In this document: piece by piece, positions 114 to 48,886 of the stretch | How positions within the stretch are numbered: the stretch's first letter is position 1 | How the letters are laid out: every line of letters starts with the position of its first letter | Origin: Bacteroidota bacterium | GTDB taxonomy: Bacteria > Bacteroidota > Bacteroidia > UKL13-3 | Assembly (NCBI GenBank): GCA_947464275.1 | Contig: CANHVU010000001.1 | Span: 186,993-250,992, forward strand | Direction of reading: 5' to 3' | Length of the DNA: 64,000 bases | Program-made: the position numbers and the translations under genes | The notes under the pieces: model-generated | The model's database searches: none | Seen by the model: only the letters and a program-made list of their open reading frames with translations | Told to the model about the DNA's origin: nothing

Positions 114-3100
114 TTATTCTTTTACTATTTTAGTTATAAATACTTGGTTTTGGCTAAGTACTTTTATTAGGTAAATTCCGTTAACCAATTGCTCAGTATT
201 TAATGAAATTTCATTTTTACCAAGGGTATTAAATGTTTGGTTCATTATAACTTTTCCTGTTAAATCAATTACTTCAATTTGTATTGTATTGCCAATATTT
301 TCTGGCAATTGAATGTTTAATTCTTTGTTAGCTGGGTTAGGGAAAACCAATAAGTTTGCGCTATTATTAGTATTAACACTTGCAGGATAACCTAAAGTAA
401 ATTTAGAGTAAATGGTATCTGAATATTGAGTAAACACGCCTGATTTTGCCACTACTCTCCATCTTAAATTTTTGCTTTGGCCATTGCTTAAACCCAATAG
501 AGTAAGCGCATTTGCTATTTGTCCGTAAGTTGCAGTTATTATAGTATCTGTTCCCATATTGTTAGATAACATCATGGCATTTGCATTTAAAAACTGTCCG
601 TTTACAGAGTCAATTTGTAAAGCATAAATAGGATTATTAATGGTAGCTTCTGGTATTGATTTACTCCATTTAATGGTAAGTGTTTGGTTGGTATCACCAT
701 TAATTGCTAAATTGTTAAACGCTGATGGGTTGTTAACATAGAATCTGCTCAATGGTTCAAAAATGCGAATATCATTTCCATTACGAGGGCTGATATAATA
801 GCCTGTAAAGGCATATGGTGCAGTTACATTTGATTTTTGACCTCCAATTCCTACTAAATGAAAATATTTGTCTTTAGGTAATAAACTACCCACTAATTGG
901 TTTTTTTCTTCTAGTTTAATGTTAAATTGTTGGTTGCTATCGTTTATAACTTGGTAAGTTAAATTACTTGACCAAAATCTTTCGTTGCTATTCAAATTGA
1001 TGAAGCGTAGTCTTTTTATTTCTACCAATTCATTTTCTGTATTTTCATTTAATTGGGTAGTAATAAATGGTTGTTTTAAAGTTTTAAATTGGCTTATTAA
1101 ACTAATGCTATCTACCTCTAAACTAAGCAACCCTCTCATGCTTATTATTTTACCTAATACCAATATGCTATCACCAATTTGAGGTTGGTAATTATAAGTG
1201 CTGGTGCTTGAGTAAATATTTATACCACCAGTACGGTCGTTTATAACAAATTGAATACCTATTGGATATGGATTTATTTGATTGGTTTGATAAACCAAAC
1301 CTTTTAAAGCCACCCTTACATTGTTTGAATCAGGTACACCTGTTACAGCATTCACTTTATTAATTTGATTGATGAAATATAAGTTAGGCATAGGCAAGTT
1401 TGGAGCTGCTGTTCCAACTCCAGTTGCGCCATTTAACGAGTAAGTTGAATCTTGACTGCGAACCACAAAAACTAAAACATGGTAGTTGGTGTAATTATTT
1501 ACTCCATAAAGCATTACAAAGTTGGTATCGCCTATATAAACAGCGCAAGCATTTGAATCGTTTGGAAATTTAGAGCCTTTATTGTTAATCATTGACTGAC
1601 TAATAATGGTATTACGTCTTATATCACTATTGGTAATTTGTGCATCAATTGGGCTGCCAGCTTTAACATAAACTATGGTGTTATAATTATCGTTATTATA
1701 ATCAATAGGCTTAGTCCAATTTATACGTAAAGTTGAATTGGTTAATCCTGATACTGTTACATTCGATACATTGCTTGGTGGCACGTCCTTAGTAATTCCA
1801 TTTACAATACGAGGGTTTGAATAGCTTGTATCCACAGTATTTATTACATAAACTACTGCATAATAATTGGTATTTGCTACAAGATTATTAATCAATACTC
1901 GGTTTAAATCTCCCTTGTAAACACAATAAGCCAAAGCATCGTGTTGATACGCAGAACCACTTCCAAATATGGCATTAGCGTTAATAGTACTTGCGTCTAA
2001 ATTCGGTGTGCCTAAATTAATGGCACTGCCTTGTTTTAAATATACCACAGTGGTATAATTATTGTCATTGTATAACTCATCTTTTCCCCAACTTATTTCG
2101 CTTAAAGTGTTGTTATAAGCATTCCATTTTGGGGCTATAACACTATTAGGTCCGTTGTTATTGGTAAAATCTGATGTAGTAACTACTTCTGAATAATTGG
2201 AATCTAAATCGTTAATGGCAAAAGCTGCAATAAAGTATTCTTTTCCTGGGGTTAAATTAGTAAGAAAAACTTCTGTATCATCCCCTTTATAAACGCATTT
2301 AGCGGCAGCATCGTTTTGAAATGCACTAGCTGTTGCCGCAAAATCATTGTTGTTTATTATATTAATAGGATTGGTATTTGGTGTGGTTAAATTATTTATC
2401 GCTGTATTTTCTTTTACATATACAACTGTGGTATAATTTGTATTCGAATAATAGTTTAATTGTTGATCCCATTTTACCCTAGCTGTTGTTTTTCCTGTTG
2501 CAGTAAATGTTAAGTTAATTAAAGGTTTTGGTGCAGTGGTTGCAGTTGTAAAATTAGTTTGCAATACCAATGAATACGAATTGTTTAAAGTATTGTAAGC
2601 ATAAATAATGGCGTGATAACTGGTTTTTTGTTTTAAACCGGTAACTGTAATATTGGTACTATCTGTGTTTAGAACACACTTAGCGTTAGCATCATTTTCG
2701 TAAAATGAGTTGGCTGTTAAAAAGTTTGGATTAGGTATATAAAAACTTTGATTGATATTGGGACTACCAATATTTATGGGATTGTTTTCTTTTATAAAAA
2801 CCAAAGTGGTGTAAACCGAATCAAAATAAGCACTGTTTTTCTCCCAAATTAGCTTAACTGAATTGGTTGTTATTTCTCTTGAGTTAAATAGGTTTAAAAG
2901 TTGCAGTTTGGTAGGTTTGTTTAATTCACTCCAGTCGTTTGTACTTCTTATTCCGTCAATAATTAGTTTAGGAGCTATGCTATCGTTTCCTTGTATCAGC
3001 GCCACTCCACTTAGTTTCAATAGATCATTATCAGTACCTGAATTTATTTGTATCAAAGGCATTGGTTCCGAAGTTGGAAATCCAGATTTGAAATTGAAAA

Positions 3101-3641
3101 GAGAAACCACATCGTTATCATTGCCACTTACCGATTCATATTTTAGCACCACTAAACTTGTGATGTTTAAATCGAAACTATCGTTTCCATAAACTGGAGT
3201 TTCATTGATTTTAGCTATTCCAATTTTATAAAAATTTGAACCTGCCGATTTTATATAAACCTTTGTTTTTAATTCTTCAATTGGGTTGATTGTGGTGTAA
3301 GTGAAAAAATAATCACCAGCCAAAGTTGCTTTATTTACATTTAGCATAAAAGCAGTGTAGGTTATTTTGTTTTGCATGAATGGCACACCAAAGCTCATTT
3401 TTAAATCTTGTCCTGTTGAATCAATTTTGGCAGCATTGCCAATATTTGATAAAACATAGTCGGTATAAGTTAAACCAGGACTTACTGTTTTAATGGGATT
3501 AATATTTCCATTGGTATACAGCGAGCTCCATCCAAAGCTTTTCAGCTCTCCCGTAAAGTTAAAATTAGCGGTTAAAAGTTGCTGTGCATGAGCATTAAGC
3601 AATAAAGCTAAAATGGCAATTAAGGTTAGTTTCGTTTTCAT
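114..3641 (-). CDS. Secreted multidomain protein: four FnIII-like repeats, OB-fold-like domain, T9SS type A sorting domain
   Basis: Signal peptide (MKTKLTLIAILALLLNAHAQ); repeats with DxxAxCVYxGD motif; C-terminus NLLVFPNPANKELNIQLP...GIYLIKVLSQNQVFITKIVKE is a typical Por secretion tail. Confidence 0.85.
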   Translation of the reverse strand: MKTKLTLIAILALLLNAHAQQLLTANFNFTGELKSFGWSSLYTNGNINPIKTVSPGLTYTDYVLSNIGNAAKIDSTGQDLKMSFGVPFMQNKITYTAFMLNVNKATLAGDYFFTYTTINPIEELKTKVYIKSAGSNFYKIGIAKINETPVYGNDSFDLNITSLVVLKYESVSGNDNDVVSLFNFKSGFPTSEPMPLIQINSGTDNDLLKLSGVALIQGNDSIAPKLIIDGIRSTNDWSELNKPTKLQLLNLFNSREITTNSVKLIWEKNSAYFDSVYTTLVFIKENNPINIGSPNINQSFYIPNPNFLTANSFYENDANAKCVLNTDSTNITVTGLKQKTSYHAIIYAYNTLNNSYSLVLQTNFTTATTAPKPLINLTFTATGKTTARVKWDQQLNYYSNTNYTTVVYVKENTAINNLTTPNTNPINIINNNDFAATASAFQNDAAAKCVYKGDDTEVFLTNLTPGKEYFIAAFAINDLDSNYSEVVTTSDFTNNNGPNSVIAPKWNAYNNTLSEISWGKDELYNDNNYTTVVYLKQGSAINLGTPNLDASTINANAIFGSGSAYQHDALAYCVYKGDLNRVLINNLVANTNYYAVVYVINTVDTSYSNPRIVNGITKDVPPSNVSNVTVSGLTNSTLRINWTKPIDYNNDNYNTIVYVKAGSPIDAQITNSDIRRNTIISQSMINNKGSKFPNDSNACAVYIGDTNFVMLYGVNNYTNYHVLVFVVRSQDSTYSLNGATGVGTAAPNLPMPNLYFINQINKVNAVTGVPDSNNVRVALKGLVYQTNQINPYPIGIQFVINDRTGGINIYSSTSTYNYQPQIGDSILVLGKIISMRGLLSLEVDSISLISQFKTLKQPFITTQLNENTENELVEIKRLRFINLNSNERFWSSNLTYQVINDSNQQFNIKLEEKNQLVGSLLPKDKYFHLVGIGGQKSNVTAPYAFTGYYISPRNGNDIRIFEPLSRFYVNNPSAFNNLAINGDTNQTLTIKWSKSIPEATINNPIYALQIDSVNGQFLNANAMMLSNNMGTDTIITATYGQIANALTLLGLSNGQSKNLRWRVVAKSGVFTQYSDTIYSKFTLGYPASVNTNNSANLLVFPNPANKELNIQLPENIGNTIQIEVIDLTGKVIMNQTFNTLGKNEISLNTEQLVNGIYLIKVLSQNQVFITKIVKE

Positions 3642-3733: not shown

Positions 3734-6700
3734 TTAAAAATCTAAACCAAGCGCAAAATAATAAACTGGTTTTGAAGCCACTTCCGCATCTTGAATTCCC
3801 CAAGCAGTATCAAAGCGTAAAAAATACCCCAATACCTTTGTCCTTAATCCACCTCCAAAACCCGCCACTAACGGATCTCTTACATTAGTAACTCTAGCCA
3901 AAACAGGAGCAACATTAATGGTTTTCTGATTAAAGGTATTATCATCACCATAAGGATTAGAGCCAATCCAAGCGGTCCCCATATCAAAGAAAGGAACCAT
4001 TTGAAAAGTATTTAGAAACTCACTTCTCAAAGGTCTGTTAAAAGCATATTGAAAAATTGGAATTCTAATTTCGGTATTTATTAAAGCAAAATTGTTACCA
4101 TTTCTAATGTTTTGCTCAAAACCTCTTAGATTAGCAGCCAGTGCCTGAAAAACATAATTTTCGGATGAAGAAGTGCTAGATTCGTTATTAAAACGAGGCA
4201 ATATCCAATTTTCGACCCCACCTAAATAATAAACTACTTTAGCTGGACCAAAAGAGGAGTTGGCTGTAAGGCGAGTACACCAAATTATTTGTCTATGTAT
4301 TTTTTCATAATGACGTGCATCAAAACCAATAGCACTTAATTGAACATTCCAATCGTCCAAATTAGCATAACGCTCATAAAATACTTTTAAACGTGTACCA
4401 TTCCATAAATTTAATCCTTTTGGTACGGTATTATCAAATACATATTCTGCCTTGGCTCCAATCCAATTAGTAACCCTATCAGGCGTTTCTAAAGTAGCGT
4501 TGTTAGAGCCTCTTAAAATATCTCTATCTGTGCGTCCAAATATGTTTAACCTTAGGCTGCTTGTTTGTGAAATAGGGTACTTCAAAATATAACGAAGCTC
4601 ATGACTATAGCTTTTTACAGCAGTATTGTTTTCGGGTATACCGCCACTTCTACTTTGGCGATAGAAAACAAATTTATGGTCTAAGCGTTTTTTTAATGTT
4701 TCGAACGATGCAAAATAATCAAAGCCATTGCCATCAAAGCTTACCCGAACACCGCCCGTAAATCTATAGTCCTCTAAAAGATCAATCATTCCTAGCTTAA
4801 ACATCCCGTTTAATCCTGGATTAAACATTTGAGCCGCGGCACCACCTATTGGTTGATAGTAAGTATTTATTATCGAATTGTCGATTTGAGTTATTACTTG
4901 GTCTGCGAAGAAAGTAACATCGTAAAATTTCGGTGTACTAATTTTTAATGTACGTTTTAGTGTTTCATTAGTTCCTGTTTTGGGTATTAGAATAAATGCA
5001 GGACGCTTAAATTCTTCTGGGGTAAACTCACTCATAAAGAAAAATTGCGTTGTATCTTGCATAACCTTGATTTCCAATTCTGCGGTTTCGTCTGTTTGTT
5101 TATTATAAAAGGTATCAGGAGAATTTATTTGCTCTGCAAAACTCCTAAATATACGCAATCCACTTTCAAATTGTTTATTGGTAACCCCACTTTTTAACCT
5201 GAACATATTTGGATAACTTTCAATCGTTTTACCCCACTCTTCAATGCTTCGTTCTTGCGGACTTATTTTTATGTAATACTTGTTTTTGTAAAGCATTAAA
5301 TCATAAGTAGTTTTAGATTGAACAGACACATCTTGGGCCAAAATTCCACGTTGGTAGTTGGTAATAGGGTAGGTGTAAACTAAATCCTTGTTATAAACTA
5401 AAGTATCTATTTTTTCTACTGTGCTGTCTAGCGTTATAAGTTTTCCTCTATAGGTAAATTGTGAGCCATTCCATGTTGGCTTTTCTATATAGCATAAAGT
5501 ATCGATAGGCTTTTCAGTATATTCAAAATATTTTACGTATATGGCGGTATAATCATATTCCTCCTCCAAACGGCTTGCATAGCGATTTTTAGTGCCATTA
5601 TAATCGCTTAAATAGGCGTAATAATTGCGTTTATATTCAATTGGATTTGTTTCGTTAATATAAGGTGTTTTGGTAAGTCTTTTTAACATTCTTGTTTTTA
5701 TTGACTCTTCTATATCGTATAAATATACATCATAATTATTGTCAGGTCTTAAACTGCTAATAATTCCAGCATTTAAAGAATCGGTAGGGCGATTTGAGCT
5801 AAATATAATTTTACTTGAACCGTCAGTATAACGAGGGTTGGCGTCATCATAAATATCGTTTGTTAATTGTTTTTCCTTTCTACTAGGTATATCAAAAGTG
5901 AAAATATCTGACTGACCCTTTCTAATGGCACTAACTACTAGGGTTCTACCATTATCGCTGTAGTCAAAACCAGTAATTTTATCAAATTTAAAAAACTCAA
6001 CGGTTTCTTTACTTTTATTAACCAAATCAATTGTTTTGAGCAACAGTTTACCCTTTTTTTCGTAAACCATGGCTAATTTATCACCTCCTTGTTGCCAAGC
6101 TAATGTTGGAAAGCTATAATCGTATTCAAGTTGATAATATTTTATGCCACCCTTTAATATTTTTTTTAGTTTATTGGTTTTGGTATTTAGCAGCCAAACT
6201 TTGTATTTCCCGTTTTTGTTGGATGTAAAACTAACATAATCACCCTTGCTCGAAACCTTCATTTGCGGTTGAATATATTGTGCTACTCTTCGCTTGATTT
6301 TTATATCTACCAAGGGCATGTTTCTACCTATATCCTCGCGACTATACATTTTTTGGTAATACTCAAACCAATCTTTTTGAATTTGTTTAAAGGTTTTATC
6401 ATTACATACATAGCTTAAAGCACTTTCATAATTGCGAGTAACCCTTATGGCATATATAACTTGTTTTATAACCTCTTCAGGTCTTTCATTATTGTCTATA
6501 ATATATTTCCAAATGCTATGTCCAGCAAAAACTGCATCTTTTTGATTTAAGCGATTAAATTTTTTAAACTTTTTGGTAAGCACACCGTCCTTCATTCGGT
6601 TATCCATATCAGCATCCCAATCCTTACTTATGTATGAGGTTAGTCCATGTAAAAACCACTCTGGTAAATTAAGCAAGGCTGCATTTTGAATTCGCTCTTG

Positions 6701-7165
6701 TAGGCTCCCTCCGTATAGAACCTCGTTAATTATTACTAAGGCTATACCTTCGTTAAGTTGCCTTGCCAAATCAGCATGGTCGCCATTAAAATAAACATAT
6801 ATTTTATTACTATTAACCTGCGTGTAACCACCAGTATTTTGAGCCAAATCTTCTAAACCAAAATTACTTTGTTTCAAATCCGATTGTGTATTGTAACAAA
6901 TAATTTCTATTCTACCGCTTAAAGGATGCTCTAATCTATCTTCTAAAAGGGGCAACTTATCGGTTACATATTTTAAACAAAATGTAGCCAACTCTTTACC
7001 TCCACTGTAATAGTAGGCATCAAAATTTTCTACACGCAAATAGTTCCAATCAAAGCGACCATACTGCACCCTATTTTGGCCAAAAGGTGTATTAATGCCT
7101 TGGCTAAATAATGATTTAGTTAACCCCAAAAAAAGTACTATAAAAAGATATTTTATTAAGCGCAT
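3734..7165 (-). CDS. Outer-membrane protein: degenerate peptidase-MA-like N-terminus, TolB/PD40-like beta-propeller, C-terminal Omp85/BamA-like barrel
   Basis: Signal peptide; propeller motifs (YSDNGRTLVVSA, DANPRYTDGSSKIIFSSNRP); C-terminal LRGFEQNIRNGNNFALINTEIRIPI, FFDMGTAW and GFGGGLRTKVLGYFLRFDTAWGI resemble Omp85 barrel signatures. Confidence 0.75.
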   Translation of the reverse strand: MRLIKYLFIVLFLGLTKSLFSQGINTPFGQNRVQYGRFDWNYLRVENFDAYYYSGGKELATFCLKYVTDKLPLLEDRLEHPLSGRIEIICYNTQSDLKQSNFGLEDLAQNTGGYTQVNSNKIYVYFNGDHADLARQLNEGIALVIINEVLYGGSLQERIQNAALLNLPEWFLHGLTSYISKDWDADMDNRMKDGVLTKKFKKFNRLNQKDAVFAGHSIWKYIIDNNERPEEVIKQVIYAIRVTRNYESALSYVCNDKTFKQIQKDWFEYYQKMYSREDIGRNMPLVDIKIKRRVAQYIQPQMKVSSKGDYVSFTSNKNGKYKVWLLNTKTNKLKKILKGGIKYYQLEYDYSFPTLAWQQGGDKLAMVYEKKGKLLLKTIDLVNKSKETVEFFKFDKITGFDYSDNGRTLVVSAIRKGQSDIFTFDIPSRKEKQLTNDIYDDANPRYTDGSSKIIFSSNRPTDSLNAGIISSLRPDNNYDVYLYDIEESIKTRMLKRLTKTPYINETNPIEYKRNYYAYLSDYNGTKNRYASRLEEEYDYTAIYVKYFEYTEKPIDTLCYIEKPTWNGSQFTYRGKLITLDSTVEKIDTLVYNKDLVYTYPITNYQRGILAQDVSVQSKTTYDLMLYKNKYYIKISPQERSIEEWGKTIESYPNMFRLKSGVTNKQFESGLRIFRSFAEQINSPDTFYNKQTDETAELEIKVMQDTTQFFFMSEFTPEEFKRPAFILIPKTGTNETLKRTLKISTPKFYDVTFFADQVITQIDNSIINTYYQPIGGAAAQMFNPGLNGMFKLGMIDLLEDYRFTGGVRVSFDGNGFDYFASFETLKKRLDHKFVFYRQSRSGGIPENNTAVKSYSHELRYILKYPISQTSSLRLNIFGRTDRDILRGSNNATLETPDRVTNWIGAKAEYVFDNTVPKGLNLWNGTRLKVFYERYANLDDWNVQLSAIGFDARHYEKIHRQIIWCTRLTANSSFGPAKVVYYLGGVENWILPRFNNESSTSSSENYVFQALAANLRGFEQNIRNGNNFALINTEIRIPIFQYAFNRPLRSEFLNTFQMVPFFDMGTAWIGSNPYGDDNTFNQKTINVAPVLARVTNVRDPLVAGFGGGLRTKVLGYFLRFDTAWGIQDAEVASKPVYYFALGLDF

Positions 7166-7671: not shown

Positions 7672-7879
7672 ATTTTAAAACGAATATTTTGTTCGTTTTG
7701 GGGAGTGCAAATATAGATATACATTTAAATAATGCAAAACTTTTTATAAAAATAGCTTGCTTTTTTTCTTAAGTCCTAATAATCTTCGCAATAAAATAAA
7801 GTACACATTCAAAAAAATGTGCATTTTACTTTATTTTCAATATAAAATATATACTGCAAATTTGCGTTCTATATATACT

Positions 7880-10390
7880 GTGAAACCATTTTTTAAAATA
7901 TTACTTGCCAGCACCCTGTTTTTGTTATTTGCGGCAGCCGTTTTTGTGGGCTACCTGCTTAACAACAAACGTATTTTAACTAATTTCGTAATTGAACAAA
8001 TTAACAATAACCTCAATGCTGAGTTGCAAGTTAAAAATAGCGATGTTACTATTTTTCAAAATTTTCCAAACGTAAGCCTTGATTTAATCGGGGTTTCGCT
8101 ACAAACCAAAACAGAAAATATATTAACTGCCAACCACTTATATTTTGGCTTTAACATAAAAGATATTTTAAACAAAAATTACCATATCCAAATAATTACC
8201 ATTGATAGTGCTACCATTAATTTAAAAATAGACGAAAATGGCAAATCGAACCTAGATATAGTAAAGAGTAGTAAAGAGCAAGAAAGCAATAACACCAACT
8301 TTTTAATTGATTTAGAAAAAGTAAAACTCAAACGTGTTAACTTTAATTTTAACGATTTACAAAGTAATCAGAACTATAAAACACAAATTAAGGAAGCGGA
8401 ATTTGATGGAAGTTTTAAAAATACAGAGTTTAAACTAAATGTTTATGCCGATGCATTTGTAAACCAGATTACTAGCAGCAATGTAAATTTTGTAAAAGGT
8501 AAAAATGTAGTGCTGAAAGCCAATATTGCGGTTAATAACAATAAAAAAACATACGCATTTAAAAATGCTGAACTAAAAATAAACGAACTTGATTTATTGT
8601 TGAACGGATTAATAACAGGCAAGCAAGTTGGAAGCGAAGTCCAACTAGATTTTGATTCTAAAAAAATAAGCATTGCTTCATTATTCAGTTTACTACCCAT
8701 AAAAATTCCAGCCGAGGTTTTGGCCTACGAGAGTAAAGGAAATGTGTTTTTTAAAGGAACCGTAAATGGTTTGATATCGCCAGTTAGTAATCCAAAAATA
8801 TTGGTTGATTTTGGAGTAAGTAATGGCAGTATTCATAACAAAAAACTCAATATTAAACTGAACAATGTTTCGATGGTGGGTAAATTTAACAATGGCGCAA
8901 AACAAGACCTAACAACAAGTTTATTGGTACTTAACAACATAAAAGCCAAACTAGCTAACGACCAAATTAACGGAGACATAACCATAGAAAACTTGGCTTC
9001 TCCTAAACTTGATTTGGCATTAGCCGGAACCATGAATTTGGAAAATTTGTTTCAACTTTTTCCAGTTAAAGCCATTGAAAGCATAAAAGGTAATATTGGT
9101 TTCGACACAAAAATTAAAGCCAATTTAGCTTATAAAAACACCAGCAATATTTGGAAACAAGCAGGTAATTATGGTAAATTTAATTTATTGGTTAACAACT
9201 TAAAAGTTAAAGATTTTGATAAAAAAATTGATAATTTAGAAGCCAATTTTGCTTTAAACGGAGCCAATTTAGACATAGAAAAATGCAATGTAAACCTCAA
9301 TCAGTCGGATGTAAAAATTAGTGGAAGCTTAAATAATTTTTTAGGTTATTTATTTGGCAATAACGAAAATTTGACGGCTAATATTAACTACAACAGCAAT
9401 TATGTAGATATGGAACATGTTATTTTTATGCCCGAAACAAAAAAATCAACCACTACAGAAAGCAAATACAACTTACCACAAAATATTGATTTACAAATAA
9501 ATGCAAATATTGATAAATTTAAATACAATAACCTTATAGCCAATAACTTATCATGCAAAATCCAAGTTTTGCCTATGCAAATTATTATAAACCAAGCTAA
9601 ACTAAATGCACTTAATGGCAGTATAAATTTTGCAGCTAAAGTGCTCAATAGCAAGCAAGGCAATTATTTTATAGAAAGTAAAATTGACCTGAAAAATATA
9701 AATGTAACAGAGGCTTTTAGGCAATGCAATAATTTTGGACAAACCAATATTACTGCCCAAAATTTAAAAGGAACTTACAACGGGAGTATTGATTTTGCAG
9801 GAGTTTGGGACGAAAAACTGAACTGCAAAACAGATAAAATTTATGCGCAAATAAAAATTCAATTGCTAAATGGTGAGCTGATTAACTATAAACCATTGGC
9901 GGCTTTAAGTAGATTTGTAAGCCTTACCGATTTACAAAACTTAAAATTTGCTGAGCTTAATAATACCATTGAAATTAAGGAGCAAACCATTACCATTCCT
10001 AAAATGCTTATTGAAAACAATGCAGTGAATATTACCCTTAGCGGCAGTCAAAACTTTGATAACTTTATAGATTACGATTTAAAAGTAAATTTAAGTGAAG
10101 TACTAAGAAAAAAACTGAAAGCTAAAGACAACGAATTTGGCGAAGAAGACGAAAAGAAAAAAGGAATCAATTTATTTATAAATATGCGCGGGCCAATAGA
10201 CAATTTGAAATTTGTTTACAACAAATCGGCCGTTAAGCAAAATATAAAAGAAAAAGCCAAAGGGGAAGGCAAAAGCATTATTGAAACACTAAAAAAAGAG
10301 GTGGGAATAATTCCAAACAATAACAAAAACACCGACAAACCCAAAGAAAAACATAATGAAAACGATGAACTTGAATTTGAAAAAGATTAA
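7880..10390 (+). CDS. AsmA-family protein; probable GTG start at 7880, with the track ORF extended upstream to 7757
   Basis: N-terminal TM helix then LLNNKRILTNFVIEQINNNLNAELQVKNSDVTIFQNFPNVSLDLIGVSL, typical AsmA N-terminus; repetitive beta-rich body. Confidence 0.8.
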   Translation: MKPFFKILLASTLFLLFAAAVFVGYLLNNKRILTNFVIEQINNNLNAELQVKNSDVTIFQNFPNVSLDLIGVSLQTKTENILTANHLYFGFNIKDILNKNYHIQIITIDSATINLKIDENGKSNLDIVKSSKEQESNNTNFLIDLEKVKLKRVNFNFNDLQSNQNYKTQIKEAEFDGSFKNTEFKLNVYADAFVNQITSSNVNFVKGKNVVLKANIAVNNNKKTYAFKNAELKINELDLLLNGLITGKQVGSEVQLDFDSKKISIASLFSLLPIKIPAEVLAYESKGNVFFKGTVNGLISPVSNPKILVDFGVSNGSIHNKKLNIKLNNVSMVGKFNNGAKQDLTTSLLVLNNIKAKLANDQINGDITIENLASPKLDLALAGTMNLENLFQLFPVKAIESIKGNIGFDTKIKANLAYKNTSNIWKQAGNYGKFNLLVNNLKVKDFDKKIDNLEANFALNGANLDIEKCNVNLNQSDVKISGSLNNFLGYLFGNNENLTANINYNSNYVDMEHVIFMPETKKSTTTESKYNLPQNIDLQINANIDKFKYNNLIANNLSCKIQVLPMQIIINQAKLNALNGSINFAAKVLNSKQGNYFIESKIDLKNINVTEAFRQCNNFGQTNITAQNLKGTYNGSIDFAGVWDEKLNCKTDKIYAQIKIQLLNGELINYKPLAALSRFVSLTDLQNLKFAELNNTIEIKEQTITIPKMLIENNAVNITLSGSQNFDNFIDYDLKVNLSEVLRKKLKAKDNEFGEEDEKKKGINLFINMRGPIDNLKFVYNKSAVKQNIKEKAKGEGKSIIETLKKEVGIIPNNNKNTDKPKEKHNENDELEFEKD

Positions 10391-41068: not shown

Positions 41069-44000
41069 TTAATCAGCAATAATCACAAAAGCTTTTCTAG
41101 CATAAACATTTCCATTGTTTAATATTACTAGATTGTATGTGCCCGGAGCTATACTTAGGCTATTCAAATCAATAGATTCAGTCTTGGTATTTCCATTGAT
41201 ATTAGCTTTGTATATATCTCTACCTAATAAATCAACAACTTTAATTTCACCGTTTATTATCTCATTGCTGTTTAGTTGAAACTTGAATGTACCTTTATTT
41301 GGATTTGGATATAACGTTAAATTATTGTTGTTATTATTTACGTTCATTAAGCCAGTACTATATTCATTGTTTAAGCTAGCAATTTTCCCATCTTTAAATG
41401 ATATCGGATTATTTTGTAATAATGGATTAGGTAAAACTGTAACGGTTTTACTTGCTTCTGCAAAACATCCTGTATTAGTAGTTTGTTGCACAATTCTTAC
41501 AGTATAAGTACCTGCAGAGGCATATCGTTTACTATAAATAATAGTATTGCTAGAACCTGTTCCATCTCCATAAGTCCATGTTGGTGCACCTGCACAATAA
41601 ACAACAGGAACATTATTTGGATAATTAGTGAATGTAGGTTCAAAACCAAAATCATTGGTTAATAAAACTTGACTTGTATTTGGCGCTATGGCAAAATCAA
41701 CACCAACTCTACCGTTAGCTCCTGAATTATCAGAAATATTAACAATTTTGCTTGAAGTGGTTGCACAGCCCACACCATTTAATATAGTTAATGTAATAGT
41801 TTTAAAACCACCTGCAGTATAGTAATGTGTTGGTGCTACTTCGCTAGAAACACTTCCATCACCAAAATCCCAAGCGTATTGGTTGTTGGTACCAGTAGAA
41901 GAATTTGTGGTAGTAACCATATTTCCACATGAACTGCCTACCACAGCAGAGAATATTGATTGATTGCCAGTAATTGCTGCTATAGCATTAACTGAAACAG
42001 TGGTTGATGCACTACAATTTGTGCCGGTAGAAACTGTTAAAGTTACAGTGTAATTTCCATCAGCTACATAACTGTGTAATGGACTTTCTTGAGTAGAGGT
42101 ATCAGCAACTGGTGTTTCACCAAAACTCCATAAGTAGCTTGCTGTATTTCCTGAAGGTATGGTAGAGGTATTGGTAAATTGAACGCTATTACCACAACCT
42201 GTTCCGCCTGTAAAGGCAATACCTGCAGTTGGTGCATCAGCAATTTTAATTGTTCTAGTTGTTGTTCTTGTGCAACCTCCCAAAATATTGGCAGATAATG
42301 TCATTGTATAAGTTCCTACTGCACTATAAGTATGATTTGGTGCAGTGGTTCCAGAATAAATAACTGAGCCATCACCAAAATTCCATAAGTAAGTAACGTT
42401 TGCTTCTACATTAGTATTAGTAAATGAAACTGTTTTACTACAAGAAGCATTGCTAATAGTAAATGCAGGCGTAGGAGCAGGTCTAACATCAATATTGGTA
42501 ATTGGGCTTGTACAAGCACCAATGGTTACAGTATAATCTGTTGAAGTGGTTGGCGTGATATCTGTAAAACAACTAGTAGCTCCGGTTATAGCTCCACCAT
42601 TCCAGGTAGCTGAACTAACAGGTGCACTTCCTGCACCAAGCGATAACTGGAAATTATCAATTGACCAACTTTCATTACATAATTCCTCTAAGCCTAGAGC
42701 TTCTAAAACAATAGAAATAGTGCTAGTATTATGAGGAATAATTTTTGAAATACGGTATTTACTACTTGGGGCACCGCCTCCTAAATTACAACGTGCTGGT
42801 AAAGTTGAGTTAACTGAACCAGTAAAATTAGCGTTAACAGCAGGTGCGTTATTAGGATAAGCTTGAGTCCTATAAGAGAAATTAGAGAAAGTTGTATTGA
42901 TAACACTGTTGCCATCTACATTCATTTTCCATGAATCAACTCCAGTCGAAGGATCATTTCCATCCCAAGTATCGTGAATGTATAAATCAAACTCAACCTT
43001 CACGTATTCGTGAGCGCTTAAGCCATTTTGAGTATAGATGGCTTGTTGGTTAGTTAAGAAACCTAATACTGAATCACCATTAAATTCAGTAATGGTAGGC
43101 TCATTGGCAGGAGAAATAGCAGGGAAACTCCAAGCTGAACCAATTGAAGATTGGAAATTATTTGAATGATTTACTGTGTAAACAACTGGTCCACCACTTA
43201 CAGGTAAACCATTGCAAGCGCTTAATAAATTTGGAGTTGAAGTGTTTACACCTAATTCAACATTAAAATTATCAATTGACCAACTTTCGTTACAAAGTTC
43301 CTCTAATCCTAAAGCTTCTAATTCAAGGTTAAATGAACCTGAAGTATGAGGAATAATTTTTGAAATACGATATACTGAACTTAAAGCACCACCATTATGA
43401 TTGCAAAGGGTTGGTAATGTGTTTGAAACAGCATCTGTTCCATTTAAATTGACAGCAGAAATGTTATTAGGATAAGCCTGTGTTCTATAAGAGAAATTAG
43501 AGAAAGTAGTATTTATGATGTTTGAACCATTTACACTCATTTTCCAAATATCTTTACCAATTAAACTTCCACCAATTGAATCAGTAGAATTACCATCCCA
43601 CGAATCGTGTAAGTATAAATCAAATTCAACTTTTACATAATCGTGCGAAGCTAAACCTGTTTGACTATAAACTGCCTTTTGGTTGGTTAAATAGCCTAAT
43701 ACGTTTTGACCATTGTATGATTGTACGGTTGGTACATTTGCAGGTGTAATTGCTGGGAAAGACCAAGCATTAGTAATTGCGGTTTCAAAATTTTCAGTAT
43801 AAGTTGGTGTATAAACAACTGTGCTTGAACCTCCAATAACTTGATTGGCTGTTAAACGTACCGAGTTGCCAGCACAAATAGGATTTGGCGAAGATTGCGT
43901 AATAACCACTCTAGGGCTAACATTAACAGTTTTAGTAACTCTTCCTCTGCTGTCATTACAATTACCAATTACAGAAGTTGCTACTAATCTTACATTATAA

Positions 44001-47000
44001 CTACCGTGGTTGGCATAAGTATTACCTGTTACATTTTGAGTAGTAGCACTTGTTGTGTTAGCACCAGTCATTGTCCAAGCATAAGTCATTGCTCCACCAC
44101 CTGCTAAAGTTGTTGTGTCGGTAAAGTCATAACTATTTCCAGTTACACATTGGTTAACCGTATTGATAGTAAAACCAGCTCTAGGAGTAGGATTTACTAT
44201 AATTTGTAATGAATCTGAACAACCATTTAAAGTAGCTACATAATAAGTATTAACTATAGGAGAAACTGTAATTGAATTGTTAATTATTGACGGATTTGTC
44301 CAAGTTACATTGCTGTTAGACGATTGAGATCTGTATTGTACAGTTACATTATCAATTGACCAGCTTTCGTTGCAAACATTTTCTAAGCCCGCAGCCTCTA
44401 AAATCATTTCTAATGTTGAAGCTGTATGAGAAACTTTTTTAGTAATATGGTATTTTGCACTTAATGAGCCTCCGCCAAAATTACAAGCTGTAGGTAATGT
44501 TCTTGTTAAAGAACCTGTAAAGCTTGCATTACTAGCAGAAAAATTATTTGGATAAGACTGTGTTGTTGAATTCCAAGTTTCGTTTGAGAAAGTAGTATTC
44601 AATGCAGTATCATTATCTAAAATTACGCGGAACATATCTGGACCGCTTACGGTACTATTTCCATCCCAAGTATCATGAATATATAAATCAAAATCAACTG
44701 TTATTGAATCGTGTGAAGGTAAACTAGTTAAATTTAATTTAGCTTGTTGATTACTTAAATAACCTAAAACAGAACCACCATCATAGTTTTGAATTGAAGG
44801 AACATTAGCTGGAATAATTGCTGGGAATGTCCAAGCATTTCCAATTGAGCTACTAAAATTATTTGAATATGCAGTTGTGAAAACTGCAGCATTTAAAGTA
44901 GATGCTCCATTAGAACAATTAACAGTTGTTGAAGTACCTTCACAAATAGTATTTGCTACTGGTGCCGCAGTTGATGATAAAATAGGCTTTGGTTTGATAG
45001 TTACTATAGCCGAACCCGAAGCCGATCCAGCGCATAAAGTTGAACTTGCATCTACCACACTCACTAAATTATAAGTAAATGTTCCTGAAACGTTTGTTGG
45101 AGCCACTACGTCTACTGAATTGTCTATAGCAGATGCTGTAGATACAGTATAACTGCCAACTCCATTTATATTATAAGTAAAGGTATAAGGTGCAGTTCCA
45201 TTAGCGCCTGTAAAAGTTACGTTAGGGCTAGGAGCATCTTTACAAAGAGTTGTAGTTCCACTAATACCTGCAGTTGGAATAGGATTAACTACCACATTGG
45301 TAGTTGGGTTATAAGTACAATTATTTGCATCTTTTGCTGTAAGGGTATATGTACCGCTCATAGCCACAGTTGCATTTGCACTTACTGTTCTTGCTAATGT
45401 TGCAGAAGCAGTACTCGTATAAGCATTTGGACCAGCCCATGAATAAGTTTTAGAACCTGTGCCTCCTGCAATTGAACCGCTTAAAGATAATGTTGTATTT
45501 GCACAGATTGGTCCGTTATTACTAACTGTTCCGCTTAATGCAGTAGGTTCGTTGATGGTTACAACTGATGACGATGACAAACAACCATTAGCGTCTTTTA
45601 CTATTAAAGTGTATGAATTTGAACCTAAACCTGTGAATACGTTACTTACTTGATAAGCTCCGCCATTTGAATATTGTAAAGCACCAGTTCCACCTGCTCC
45701 AACAACAGTTATTTGACCATTGCTTTGTCCATTACAAGTTAAGTCTGAACCGTTGTATGAAAGTTTAGTTGCTGAAGAAATAGTAGGTAATGAAGTTACC
45801 GTTCCACTCACAGCTATATTTTGTGTAGTAGCACTTGTAGAAGTACAACTAATATTACCAGCTGGTGAACCAGAAGCAGAATTGGTAAGCCTTACATAAA
45901 TGGTAGTACTGTTTACCGATCCACTAGTTTGTGTTAAGGAAACACTCGTAGCAAAACCTGAACCTGAAGTAGTTGAAACTTCATATCCTGATGGAGGGGT
46001 TATAATTATATCTGTTGAAAGGTTTGAACCGCTTACTGAAAAATTTTGTTCTGCTGATACTAAACCAGTACAAGCTGTAAAGGCACTTAATGTTCCTGTT
46101 GTTGAAATGGAAGGATTTAAAGTAGTATTGATATTAAGTTGGGAATATCCTCCGGTACCAGTAACTGAGGTTTTATCTGCATTTACTTTGTAAAAATAAG
46201 TAGTTCCAGGGTTTAATCCAGTTAAAGTTTTCGAAGTACTAGATGCTGAAAATGGAGAACCTGCAATTTGAGTTGCAAATGTTAGTGAAGTGGAAACTGT
46301 CAAACGGTATCCATTATCAACTGTTCCAATCGCTGGGGCGTTCCAATTAACAGTAAAGCCATTGTTTGTAATATTTGTAGCAGTTGTAAAAATTGGAACC
46401 ACCATAGCATAACTTTCAACCCAATTTGAGTTTGAACCTGTTAAACCAAAATTGTTTAAAGTTCCGTTGTTTCCATTACTTGTTAAGTCATTTAAGGTAT
46501 TTAATCCTGTGTTTGTTCCGTCAGCTATTCCGTTATCAAAATTATAATATGCTACTAACCCAGTTGATGAAGCACTAATTGGGTTGAAAGAATTAGGAAT
46601 AAATTCTGATGTTGTTCTTGCTACATTCCAAATACGAACTTCATCTATTGATCCATTAAATCTATTCCAAGGATTAGTAACATTTAAAAACTGACCTAAA
46701 GTAGTGGTAACTGAATTGTTAATATTTGGATTGCCATTAATAGTTACAGGAGTTGCTGCTTGCTGACCATCGATATATAAAAATAATTGACCAGAATTAC
46801 GAATTGCTGCAACGTGATGCCAACGACCATCATTAAACCCAGTTGTACTAGTAATTGCAGTATAATCTGCCATATTAGTTTCATTAATTTCTAAATAGAT
46901 AGTTCCATTAGATCCATACCCTAACATAAAAAAGTTTCCATTGCTATTAGCATTACGTTTTGCTATGATTGTACCTGATGAAGAACTAGTTGTTTTTACC

Positions 47001-48886
47001 CATGTTTCAATGGTAAAATCTCCAGTTCCAAAATTTCCTATGGTATTATTAATACTAACATTATCGTCAGAACCATCAAAAGCCAAAGCATTGCCCGGAG
47101 GTGTTATTCTTGTTACTGTTATAGTATAAGTTTTTAAGGTTGTGCCATCTTCCGCAGTTACTTTAACATCAATAGTATTTGTTCCAAAATTTAATGACAA
47201 TGCACTAGATGCACTACCGCTAGTAACAGTTGCATAAGTTCCACCGTTTACTCTTGCTTGGATGGATGCACCTGCATCTGTTTTTGTTGGAGTAACTGTT
47301 ATAGATGAAGTTATGCTATTAACGATACTTGAATAAGCTGTTGTTCCCGAAGCAAAAGTTGGGCTTAAAGTTCCTGAACTTAATGATAAAGAACTTAAGT
47401 TAGCATTGTTTGATAAAGCAATATTGGTCCTATAAATTGTTACAGTAGTATTGCTATTGGATTGAGCAATATCTGGTTTTCCATCATTATCTAAATCACC
47501 AACTGCAACGCTTATTGGATTACTGCCAATTGCCACACCTACTAGACAAGTGAAGCTAATTGTACCCGAGGTACTATTATTGAATAGCACATCTGGTCTA
47601 GATGTTGCAATATCTGCCTTACCATCACCATTAATATCACCCACTCCAATACCATAACTAGGACCAACAGTTGTAAATGTTTGAACAGAACCAAAAGAAA
47701 TAGCTCCAGTTGTAGAAGTATTTCTTAAAACTTTAATATTGCTTAATCCAATATTACTTAATGCTAAATCTAACATTCCATCATCATCAAAATCAGCTAC
47801 CTCAATATCCCAAGCTTGCGAAATTGATGTTAACACTGGGCTGTTTTTTGTAAAACTTAAAGTTGATAATGAACTAGTATTTCTCCAAATATGTAACTCA
47901 GAAGTATTAGCCATAGGAACTACAACATCTACTTTTCCGTCACCATCAAAATCTCCAAGTCCAACAGAAACGTTTCCATTTCCGCCAAACAAAGAGGTTG
48001 GAGAACCAAAACTTACATTTCCAACTCCAGTGCCTGTACTGGTATTTAACCTTACTTCTATTAAATTGGCACTACCCCTTTCATATATTAAATCCAATAA
48101 ACCATCACCATTAAAATCTGCCAATGCTGCTTCACGAGGTTGATTTGCTGCAGAAATAGTTATTGGAGAAGAAAATGTAATATTAGGTGATGTACTTGTG
48201 TTTATTAGTACTGAAATATCATTGCCTTTATTTGAAACAACAACATCTAAAAGGCCATCACCATCTATATCCCCAACACCAACAGAATTAGGATTACCGC
48301 CAACATTGAAGTCTATTTTTGTATCTAAGCTTATAGTACCACTAGTACTTATGTTTCTAAGAACCGAAATGGAAGAAACATTATTATTAGTAACAAGAAC
48401 ATCCGCCTTACCATCGTTATCCATGTCTGCAATAGTTGTTCTATTTGCACCAATGGAAGCGGTAGTGCTGCCTGTGGTAAAATTGCCACTTGTAAAATTA
48501 CCACTACTCATACATGATAAGATCTGTGTATAGGTTGGGGTAAACTTAGCTAAACTTAATGCCGTTAAACGATTGGACAGGTTGGTTACTGATATATTTC
48601 CAAATGTTGCACCTGCGGGAACATTTACAGTTAAACTTGTTGAAGAAGCAGCTGTTGGAGTGGATGCCTTTACACCTCCAAAAAATACTACATTATTAGC
48701 TGCTGTGCTATTAAAGTTTGTTCCAGTAATGGTTACAGAAGAGCCCACAGCAGCAGTAATTGGACTAAAAGTTGTAATTGAAGGTGCTTGAGCATATACA
48801 TTCAAGACGATCAAATTTACTGTAAAAAGTAATAGTATTTTGGATAAAATCCGGGTAAGACTATTTTTTTGTAACTGTACTTTCAT
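41069..48886 (-). CDS. Giant secreted adhesin-like protein: IPT/TIG, FG-GAP/VCBS repeats, cadherin-like, LamG-like, FnIII-like, SprB-like, PKD domains, T9SS tail
   Basis: ITTFSPITAAVGSSVTITGTNF; GDIDGDGLLDVVVSNKGNDISVLIN repeats; ETWVKTT...GSIDEVRIWNVART; YLWNFGDGS PKDs; tail LTLYPNPNKGTFKFQL...GTYNLVILNNGNVYARKAFVIIAD. Confidence 0.88.
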   Translation of the reverse strand: MKVQLQKNSLTRILSKILLLFTVNLIVLNVYAQAPSITTFSPITAAVGSSVTITGTNFNSTAANNVVFFGGVKASTPTAASSTSLTVNVPAGATFGNISVTNLSNRLTALSLAKFTPTYTQILSCMSSGNFTSGNFTTGSTTASIGANRTTIADMDNDGKADVLVTNNNVSSISVLRNISTSGTISLDTKIDFNVGGNPNSVGVGDIDGDGLLDVVVSNKGNDISVLINTSTSPNITFSSPITISAANQPREAALADFNGDGLLDLIYERGSANLIEVRLNTSTGTGVGNVSFGSPTSLFGGNGNVSVGLGDFDGDGKVDVVVPMANTSELHIWRNTSSLSTLSFTKNSPVLTSISQAWDIEVADFDDDGMLDLALSNIGLSNIKVLRNTSTTGAISFGSVQTFTTVGPSYGIGVGDINGDGKADIATSRPDVLFNNSTSGTISFTCLVGVAIGSNPISVAVGDLDNDGKPDIAQSNSNTTVTIYRTNIALSNNANLSSLSLSSGTLSPTFASGTTAYSSIVNSITSSITVTPTKTDAGASIQARVNGGTYATVTSGSASSALSLNFGTNTIDVKVTAEDGTTLKTYTITVTRITPPGNALAFDGSDDNVSINNTIGNFGTGDFTIETWVKTTSSSSGTIIAKRNANSNGNFFMLGYGSNGTIYLEINETNMADYTAITSTTGFNDGRWHHVAAIRNSGQLFLYIDGQQAATPVTINGNPNINNSVTTTLGQFLNVTNPWNRFNGSIDEVRIWNVARTTSEFIPNSFNPISASSTGLVAYYNFDNGIADGTNTGLNTLNDLTSNGNNGTLNNFGLTGSNSNWVESYAMVVPIFTTATNITNNGFTVNWNAPAIGTVDNGYRLTVSTSLTFATQIAGSPFSASSTSKTLTGLNPGTTYFYKVNADKTSVTGTGGYSQLNINTTLNPSISTTGTLSAFTACTGLVSAEQNFSVSGSNLSTDIIITPPSGYEVSTTSGSGFATSVSLTQTSGSVNSTTIYVRLTNSASGSPAGNISCTSTSATTQNIAVSGTVTSLPTISSATKLSYNGSDLTCNGQSNGQITVVGAGGTGALQYSNGGAYQVSNVFTGLGSNSYTLIVKDANGCLSSSSVVTINEPTALSGTVSNNGPICANTTLSLSGSIAGGTGSKTYSWAGPNAYTSTASATLARTVSANATVAMSGTYTLTAKDANNCTYNPTTNVVVNPIPTAGISGTTTLCKDAPSPNVTFTGANGTAPYTFTYNINGVGSYTVSTASAIDNSVDVVAPTNVSGTFTYNLVSVVDASSTLCAGSASGSAIVTIKPKPILSSTAAPVANTICEGTSTTVNCSNGASTLNAAVFTTAYSNNFSSSIGNAWTFPAIIPANVPSIQNYDGGSVLGYLSNQQAKLNLTSLPSHDSITVDFDLYIHDTWDGNSTVSGPDMFRVILDNDTALNTTFSNETWNSTTQSYPNNFSASNASFTGSLTRTLPTACNFGGGSLSAKYHITKKVSHTASTLEMILEAAGLENVCNESWSIDNVTVQYRSQSSNSNVTWTNPSIINNSITVSPIVNTYYVATLNGCSDSLQIIVNPTPRAGFTINTVNQCVTGNSYDFTDTTTLAGGGAMTYAWTMTGANTTSATTQNVTGNTYANHGSYNVRLVATSVIGNCNDSRGRVTKTVNVSPRVVITQSSPNPICAGNSVRLTANQVIGGSSTVVYTPTYTENFETAITNAWSFPAITPANVPTVQSYNGQNVLGYLTNQKAVYSQTGLASHDYVKVEFDLYLHDSWDGNSTDSIGGSLIGKDIWKMSVNGSNIINTTFSNFSYRTQAYPNNISAVNLNGTDAVSNTLPTLCNHNGGALSSVYRISKIIPHTSGSFNLELEALGLEELCNESWSIDNFNVELGVNTSTPNLLSACNGLPVSGGPVVYTVNHSNNFQSSIGSAWSFPAISPANEPTITEFNGDSVLGFLTNQQAIYTQNGLSAHEYVKVEFDLYIHDTWDGNDPSTGVDSWKMNVDGNSVINTTFSNFSYRTQAYPNNAPAVNANFTGSVNSTLPARCNLGGGAPSSKYRISKIIPHNTSTISIVLEALGLEELCNESWSIDNFQLSLGAGSAPVSSATWNGGAITGATSCFTDITPTTSTDYTVTIGACTSPITNIDVRPAPTPAFTISNASCSKTVSFTNTNVEANVTYLWNFGDGSVIYSGTTAPNHTYSAVGTYTMTLSANILGGCTRTTTRTIKIADAPTAGIAFTGGTGCGNSVQFTNTSTIPSGNTASYLWSFGETPVADTSTQESPLHSYVADGNYTVTLTVSTGTNCSASTTVSVNAIAAITGNQSIFSAVVGSSCGNMVTTTNSSTGTNNQYAWDFGDGSVSSEVAPTHYYTAGGFKTITLTILNGVGCATTSSKIVNISDNSGANGRVGVDFAIAPNTSQVLLTNDFGFEPTFTNYPNNVPVVYCAGAPTWTYGDGTGSSNTIIYSKRYASAGTYTVRIVQQTTNTGCFAEASKTVTVLPNPLLQNNPISFKDGKIASLNNEYSTGLMNVNNNNNNLTLYPNPNKGTFKFQLNSNEIINGEIKVVDLLGRDIYKANINGNTKTESIDLNSLSIAPGTYNLVILNNGNVYARKAFVIIAD
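42620..43185 (-). repeat. Module copy C (~185 aa) in the giant adhesin
   Basis: VVYTVNHSNNFQSSIGSAWSFPAISPANEP...ALGLEELCNESWSIDNFQLSLGAG. Confidence 0.85.
43250..43822 (-). repeat. Module copy B (~185 aa) in the giant adhesin
   Basis: VVYTPTYTENFETAITNAWSFPAITPANVP...ALGLEELCNESWSIDNFNVELG. Confidence 0.85.
44328..44882 (-). repeat. Module copy A (~185 aa) in the giant adhesin
   Basis: FTTAYSNNFSSSIGNAWTFPAIIPANVP...AAGLENVCNESWSIDNVTVQYRS. Confidence 0.85.

Follow-up and report, generated by a model that had tools for sequence, protein, structure and literature searches.

The window, a stretch of 64,000 nucleotides, contains on its reverse strand an open reading frame (3734-7165) that begins with ATG, has no internal stop and encodes a protein of 1143 amino acids. 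No paralogue was found at E<=10 in the 3.4-Mb assembly of the organism, in which the gene is thus single-copy. It adjoins, both here and in locus L016, a gene encoding a 1175-residue fn3 protein with a Por secretion tail (114-3641, reverse strand), a cargo of the T9SS. On the other side, an AsmA-family gene (PF05170, 5.6e-10; 7757-10390, forward strand) is transcribed divergently. AsmA and TamB are members of the same superfamily. The product of this gene was considered as a possible partner and rejected, the gene not being adjacent in L016 (98% identical), L005, L007, L019 and L021. The window also encodes a secreted protein of 2605 residues (41069-48886, reverse strand) with FG-GAP, laminin-G, PKD and cadherin-like domains and a Por secretion tail. 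The features of the gene and its product are collected in Table 1.

Table 1. Features of the gene and of the encoded protein (positions in the window; residue numbers of the window protein).
Feature	Position	Strand	Basis
Whole gene, 1143 aa: pseudo-peptidase, TolB-like propeller and Omp85 barrel	3734..7165	-	Open reading frame, single copy, full-length conservation
Signal peptide, aa 1-22 (MRLIKYLFIVLFLGLTKSLFSQ), without lipobox cysteine	7100..7165	-	Read from the sequence; cleavage site putative
Domain resembling gluzincins (peptidase MA), about residues 23-285, catalytically dead	6311..7099	-	Profile comparison; relatives match PF13485; dN/dS about 0.02
Position of the lost HExxH, E139-G140-I141-A142-L143	6737..6751	-	Alignment with 37 relatives carrying H-E-H
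Position of the lost second site (EGxxE), H173-G174-L175-T176-S177	6635..6649	-	Same 37-relative alignment
TolB-like beta-propeller, about aa 286-640, boundaries approximate	5246..6310	-	TIGR02800, PDB TolB, Foldseek
Variable linker, about aa 641-740, no POTRA recognised	4946..5245	-	Lowest conservation; highest dN/dS among the domains in most comparisons
Omp85-type beta-barrel, about aa 741-1143	3737..4945	-	Profile-profile comparison, Foldseek, PF01103 in relatives
LRGF, Omp85 loop 6 motif, aa 1013-1016	4118..4129	-	In own class, R1014 and G1015 conserved at 98%
FFDMG strand motif, aa 1059-1063	3977..3991	-	Conservation of F1059, D1061 and G1063

Relatives of the window protein at 56-98% identity are encoded at 21 loci in public MAGs, and the alignment of 11 full-length rows gives a mean column identity of 77%, which argues that the architecture is not due to chance. 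The motifs quoted in the initial annotation (QLNEGIALVI, LPEWFLHGLTSYIS, LRGF, NTEIRIPI, FFDMGTAW and the C-terminal strands) are all present. From its own sequence alone, the window protein displays only traces of the propeller in Pfam and NCBIfam; the peptidase-MA and Omp85 assignments come from relatives above the Pfam cut-offs, from profile-profile comparisons and from Foldseek. Three relatives from other classes (L056, L065 and L067) score above the thresholds of Peptidase_MA_2 (about 1e-14), PD40 (1e-20 to 1e-23) and Omp85 (2.5e-11 to 8e-8), the last match extending to the final residue, and the window protein can be aligned with other-class relatives along its entire length. The AlphaFold2 models were obtained from shallow alignments (18 rows) and both are of low confidence (pLDDT 50 for the full-length model and 45 for the barrel model); they were used for fold comparison only. 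We consider it almost certain from these sequence comparisons that the window protein combines a gluzincin-like domain, a TolB-like propeller and an Omp85 barrel.

The barrel profile of the class of the window organism (own class) matches the barrels of BamA and TamL with a probability of 98.0 and an E-value of 1.5e-13 in profile-profile comparison. PF01103 is detected in relatives down to 2.5e-11; the genome-wide Pfam scan gave no direct match of this family (Omp85) to the window protein. In the low-confidence barrel model, which displays about 15-16 strands, the top 50 PDB matches given by Foldseek are all BamA or Sam50 (best E-value 5e-9), and no barrel of another type appeared among them. 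Both signature motifs of Omp85 proteins, LRGF (loop 6) and FFDMG (the FxDxG strand), are present and conserved, the residues F1059, D1061 and G1063 being conserved in 89-91% of own-class sequences and in 81-97% elsewhere. The C-terminal Omp85-like barrel proposed initially is thus well supported.

For the middle region, TIGR02800 matches residues 356-459 at 1.6e-13, covering positions 197-299 of the 418 of the model, with a score of 50.4 bits that is far below the equivalog cut-off of 343.15. The TolB of the PDB is matched by sequence at 8e-6, the best Foldseek match of the full-length model (of low confidence) is TolB at 5.9e-9, and the PD40 matches of the window protein are sub-threshold in Pfam. 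These results bear out the PD40/TolB-like blades read in the sequence beforehand. The least conserved stretch lies between residues 520 and 740, where the identity with other-class relatives is 15%. No POTRA domain was reported in the window protein (Pfam, E<=1) or in the five other-class relatives scanned (E<=0.1), in agreement with the first reading.

The N-terminal profile of the own class matches the corresponding domain of the zinc-site-bearing relatives with a probability of 100 and an E-value of 1.3e-55, and these relatives themselves match PF13485 at about 1e-14, above the cut-off. The N-terminus is thus peptidase-MA (gluzincin)-like, as suspected at the outset. In the alignment, the sequences HHELVHAV and NEGLAEY of the relatives correspond to LNEGIALV and LHGLTSY in the window protein, in which E139, G140, L143, H173 and S177 occupy the positions of the ligands H, E, H, E and E. 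The motif HExxH has therefore become E-G-I-A-L and the second site EGxxEY has become H-G-L-T-S. No other HExxH was found in the N-terminal region of any own-class row. The earlier prediction of a catalytically dead domain is supported by this alignment, and no intact zinc site was detected elsewhere in the N-terminus of the own-class sequences.

Among the 82 rows of the alignment, the zinc site (HExxH and EGxxEY) is intact in 37 and lost in 45. On a tree constructed without the zinc-site columns, the state of the site changes twice: on the own-class branch (support 100), of which all 44 rows have lost the site, and in L094, the single exception among the other-class relatives sampled. L094 (G276), located on a long branch, has independently lost HExxH (RRELA) and has kept the second site NEGLAEY. 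A divergent clade with an active-looking site occurs in one family of the own class (L076, L077, L078 and L082). Since the outlying clades keep the site, its loss is probably the derived state, and the sequences point to two losses, one in the common ancestor of the own-class clade and another outside it. In three loci of the divergent clade (L076, L078 and L082), a gene for a class A penicillin-binding protein directly precedes the family gene, and a gene of similar size is found at this position in L077. Diverged paralogues, as many as three per genome, occur in some other-class genomes (G231, G341; L088-L091 and others), and those checked all have an intact zinc site.

The dN/dS ratio of the dead domain is 0.02 in the comparison with L016, for which synonymous change is unsaturated; in the other comparisons, some of them saturated, it is the lowest or near the lowest. 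Judging from these substitution ratios, the dead domain is not decaying and strong purifying selection persists after the loss of the site.

Relatives were sought within the phylum. The profile of close relatives matches 255 of the 396 sampled genomes and 149 of the 172 genera, values that are slight overestimates since a few matches are other proteins. Three genomes gave weak matches (L079-L081) that have no peptidase domain; these were regarded as unrelated propeller proteins and excluded. Full-length homologues of about 1035-1200 amino acids occur throughout the phylum, and the gene is missing from most genera of one own-class family (f5). This distribution, which answers the initial question of conservation across the Bacteroidota, indicates an old, phylum-wide outer-membrane protein and not a rare fusion.

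The most frequent neighbour among own-class loci is a gene for an MBL-fold hydrolase of about 212-230 amino acids, located divergently upstream in 15 of 20 loci (L118-L137). A FAD-oxidoreductase-like gene, recognised by eye, is sometimes found between this gene and the family gene. These two neighbours gave no functional lead. A tamB gene near the family gene is absent from all 20 own-class loci, and in the genome of the window organism TamB, a protein linking the inner and outer membranes, is encoded on another contig. In the other classes, a TamB-like gene, an RNase R gene (rnr) and the family gene follow each other on one strand. This order, tallied by hand from locus inspection, is present in 39 of the 65 sampled other-class genomes and in 10 of the 29 families. 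It was observed in 8 of 23 loci picked for family diversity, then in 31 of 40 further loci; as two families are heavily represented in this second set, the number of families is the more balanced measure. The family proteins of the linked form are active-looking, with an intact zinc site.

The linked TamB proteins comprise 1468-1627 amino acids and possess a hydrophobic N-terminal stretch. Their identity was established with PF04357 for part of the linked genes (matches in G001, G022, G252 and G299) and by BLAST clustering for the remainder. In G078 and G065 a second tamB adjoins a different Omp85 gene (L113 and L114), so that both tamB copies are accompanied by an Omp85 gene of their own. The linked copies fall into two deep lineages of the TamB tree, which implies that the linkage either is old, with replacement, or has arisen twice.

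The fusion of a TolB-like propeller with an Omp85 barrel is not wholly new, since such proteins were catalogued as 'WD40-Omp85' in the 2014 survey by Heinz and Lithgow (PMC4104836). This group was described in 2024 as not well characterized (PMC11116518). The initial annotation had pointed to an unusual fusion; the architecture is confirmed, but the rarity is not, given the phylum-wide and old distribution and the class named in 2014. By description, the window protein corresponds to the WD40-Omp85 proteins by its N-terminal TolB-like propeller, its Omp85 barrel and its lack of POTRA. It differs by the gluzincin domain, the class-wide inactivation and the TamB operon, none of which is mentioned for WD40-Omp85 in the available text of the survey; the 'Metallo' Omp85 group defined there carries PF00149, another fold than the gluzincin domain. 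In the open-access literature, we have found no paper joining Omp85 with peptidase MA, and the one mention of a gluzincin concerned the type II secretion apparatus of mitochondria. Compared with Peptidase_MA_2 (PF13485), the fold and the position of the zinc site in relatives are shared, whereas the window protein and its class retain none of the zinc ligands.

The POTRA domains of TamA are its binding site for TamB (PMC11014939). In Bacteroidota, TamL takes the place of TamA; in Flavobacterium johnsoniae it is recovered together with TamB on purification, and neither protein is dispensable (PMC12045153). The family studied here resembles TamL and TamA (PMC12045153, PMC4494059) in that, in the sister class, a gene for an Omp85 barrel lies beside tamB. 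In contrast to these proteins, it has no POTRA, its periplasmic half would consist of a propeller and a peptidase, and in the own class it is unlinked to tamB; contrary to TamL, the signal peptide of the window protein has no lipobox cysteine. The Omp85 protein PlpD, whose N-terminal domain is kept in the periplasm (PMC11116518), provides a precedent for an Omp85 barrel that holds an enzyme-type domain in the periplasm. PlpD carries a patatin lipase and one POTRA instead of a (pseudo)peptidase and a propeller, and no patatin domain was matched by Pfam in the window protein.

The tamB-rnr operon of the sister class, which is not visible from the window, is the best clue to function. Our best reading, whose chances we rate as evenly balanced, is that of a POTRA-less Omp85 protein that acts, or acted in the past, where a TamB-type bridge reaches the outer membrane. 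The N-terminal half would be located in the periplasm, in place of POTRA domains, where the propeller and the (pseudo)peptidase would bind a partner or substrate arriving from the periplasm and deliver it to the lateral seam of the barrel. TamB is the most likely partner, given the many sister-class genomes in which the active-looking form shares its locus with the gene for a TamB-type inner-membrane bridge. As TamA docks through POTRA domains and TamL co-purifies with TamB, the propeller and peptidase of a POTRA-less Omp85 protein encoded with tamB would most likely make the same contact or capture the substrate. The protein would thus be the outer-membrane component of a TAM-like system that handles outer-membrane proteins or lipids, and the form with an intact site may also cut stalled substrates.

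We lean slightly towards the TamB-type partnership in the sister class. The RNase R gene located between tamB and the family gene, the two deep lineages of the linked TamB copies, and the 19 of the 29 other-class families without linkage are points against it. In the window organism the same partnership is a more tentative proposal, since the linkage and the zinc site are both missing from its class. The binding role alone would remain there, the inactive peptidase and the propeller serving as docking or substrate-holding modules and the partner being an unlinked TamB or another AsmA-type protein.

It is rather unlikely that the protein acts independently of TamB as a BamA-BamB-like insertase of outer-membrane proteins or as a BAM accessory, with the propeller in the part of BamB and the pseudo-peptidase as a further docking face. 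The barrel does resemble BamA, and Heinz and Lithgow likened WD40-Omp85 proteins to BamA-BamB (PMC4104836); but the propeller matches TolB and not BamB, the genome contains a separate Omp85 gene of 841 amino acids that probably encodes BamA, and the conserved neighbour in the sister class is TamB.

A role in quality control comparable to that of BepA, also unlikely and perhaps a little more so, would make the active form an outer-membrane-anchored protease clearing stalled outer-membrane proteins and the dead form a holdase or chaperone. BepA is a periplasmic Zn-metallopeptidase that both promotes and degrades LptD (PMC8423444); HExxH and the third-ligand Glu are intact in the relatives, and the dead domain is strongly constrained. 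However, the resemblance to BepA, a zinc peptidase at the site of outer-membrane assembly, is by analogy only: BepA is not anchored by a membrane barrel, and a barrel would be an unusually elaborate anchor. This possibility is moreover compatible with the TAM-like role and not opposed to it.

Export of the N-terminal half to the cell surface by the barrel of the same protein, in the manner of a type V system, appears very improbable: the order of passenger and C-terminal barrel recalls the original proposal for PlpD, but the N-terminal domain of PlpD stays in the periplasm (PMC11116518), and a folded propeller would be a poor passenger. Least probable of all is a replacement of TolB in Tol-Pal envelope constriction, for although the genome has no TolB above the equivalog cut-off and the window protein is its best TolB-propeller match, only the propeller is shared, and that in part, in a protein anchored in the membrane by a barrel, no tol-pal genes were identified nearby, and a Bacteroides control genome likewise has only sub-threshold TolB matches, so that the absence is not special.

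With respect to the open-access literature, the new elements are the spread of the family throughout the phylum, the class-wide loss of the zinc site under constraint and the tamB-rnr linkage of the active-looking form. These observations suggest that the protein helps to build the outer membrane, and the tamB operon offers a concrete, testable partner for the WD40-Omp85 group. It is conceivable, though we put it forward with reserve, that the family represents a third kind of TAM. A TamB-type bridge of the inner membrane would here use the propeller and the peptidase as its docking points on an Omp85 protein devoid of POTRA; one class would couple proteolysis to delivery at the outer membrane, and in its sister class the former peptidase would be a pseudoenzyme with docking as its sole role. 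Catalytic death is apparently the derived state of one class, the sister-class relatives retaining an intact gluzincin site, and the active-looking and dead classes constitute a natural comparison that separates a binding role from a cutting role. The family also raises the question of whether unrelated domains can replace POTRA, the presumed docking site of TamB.
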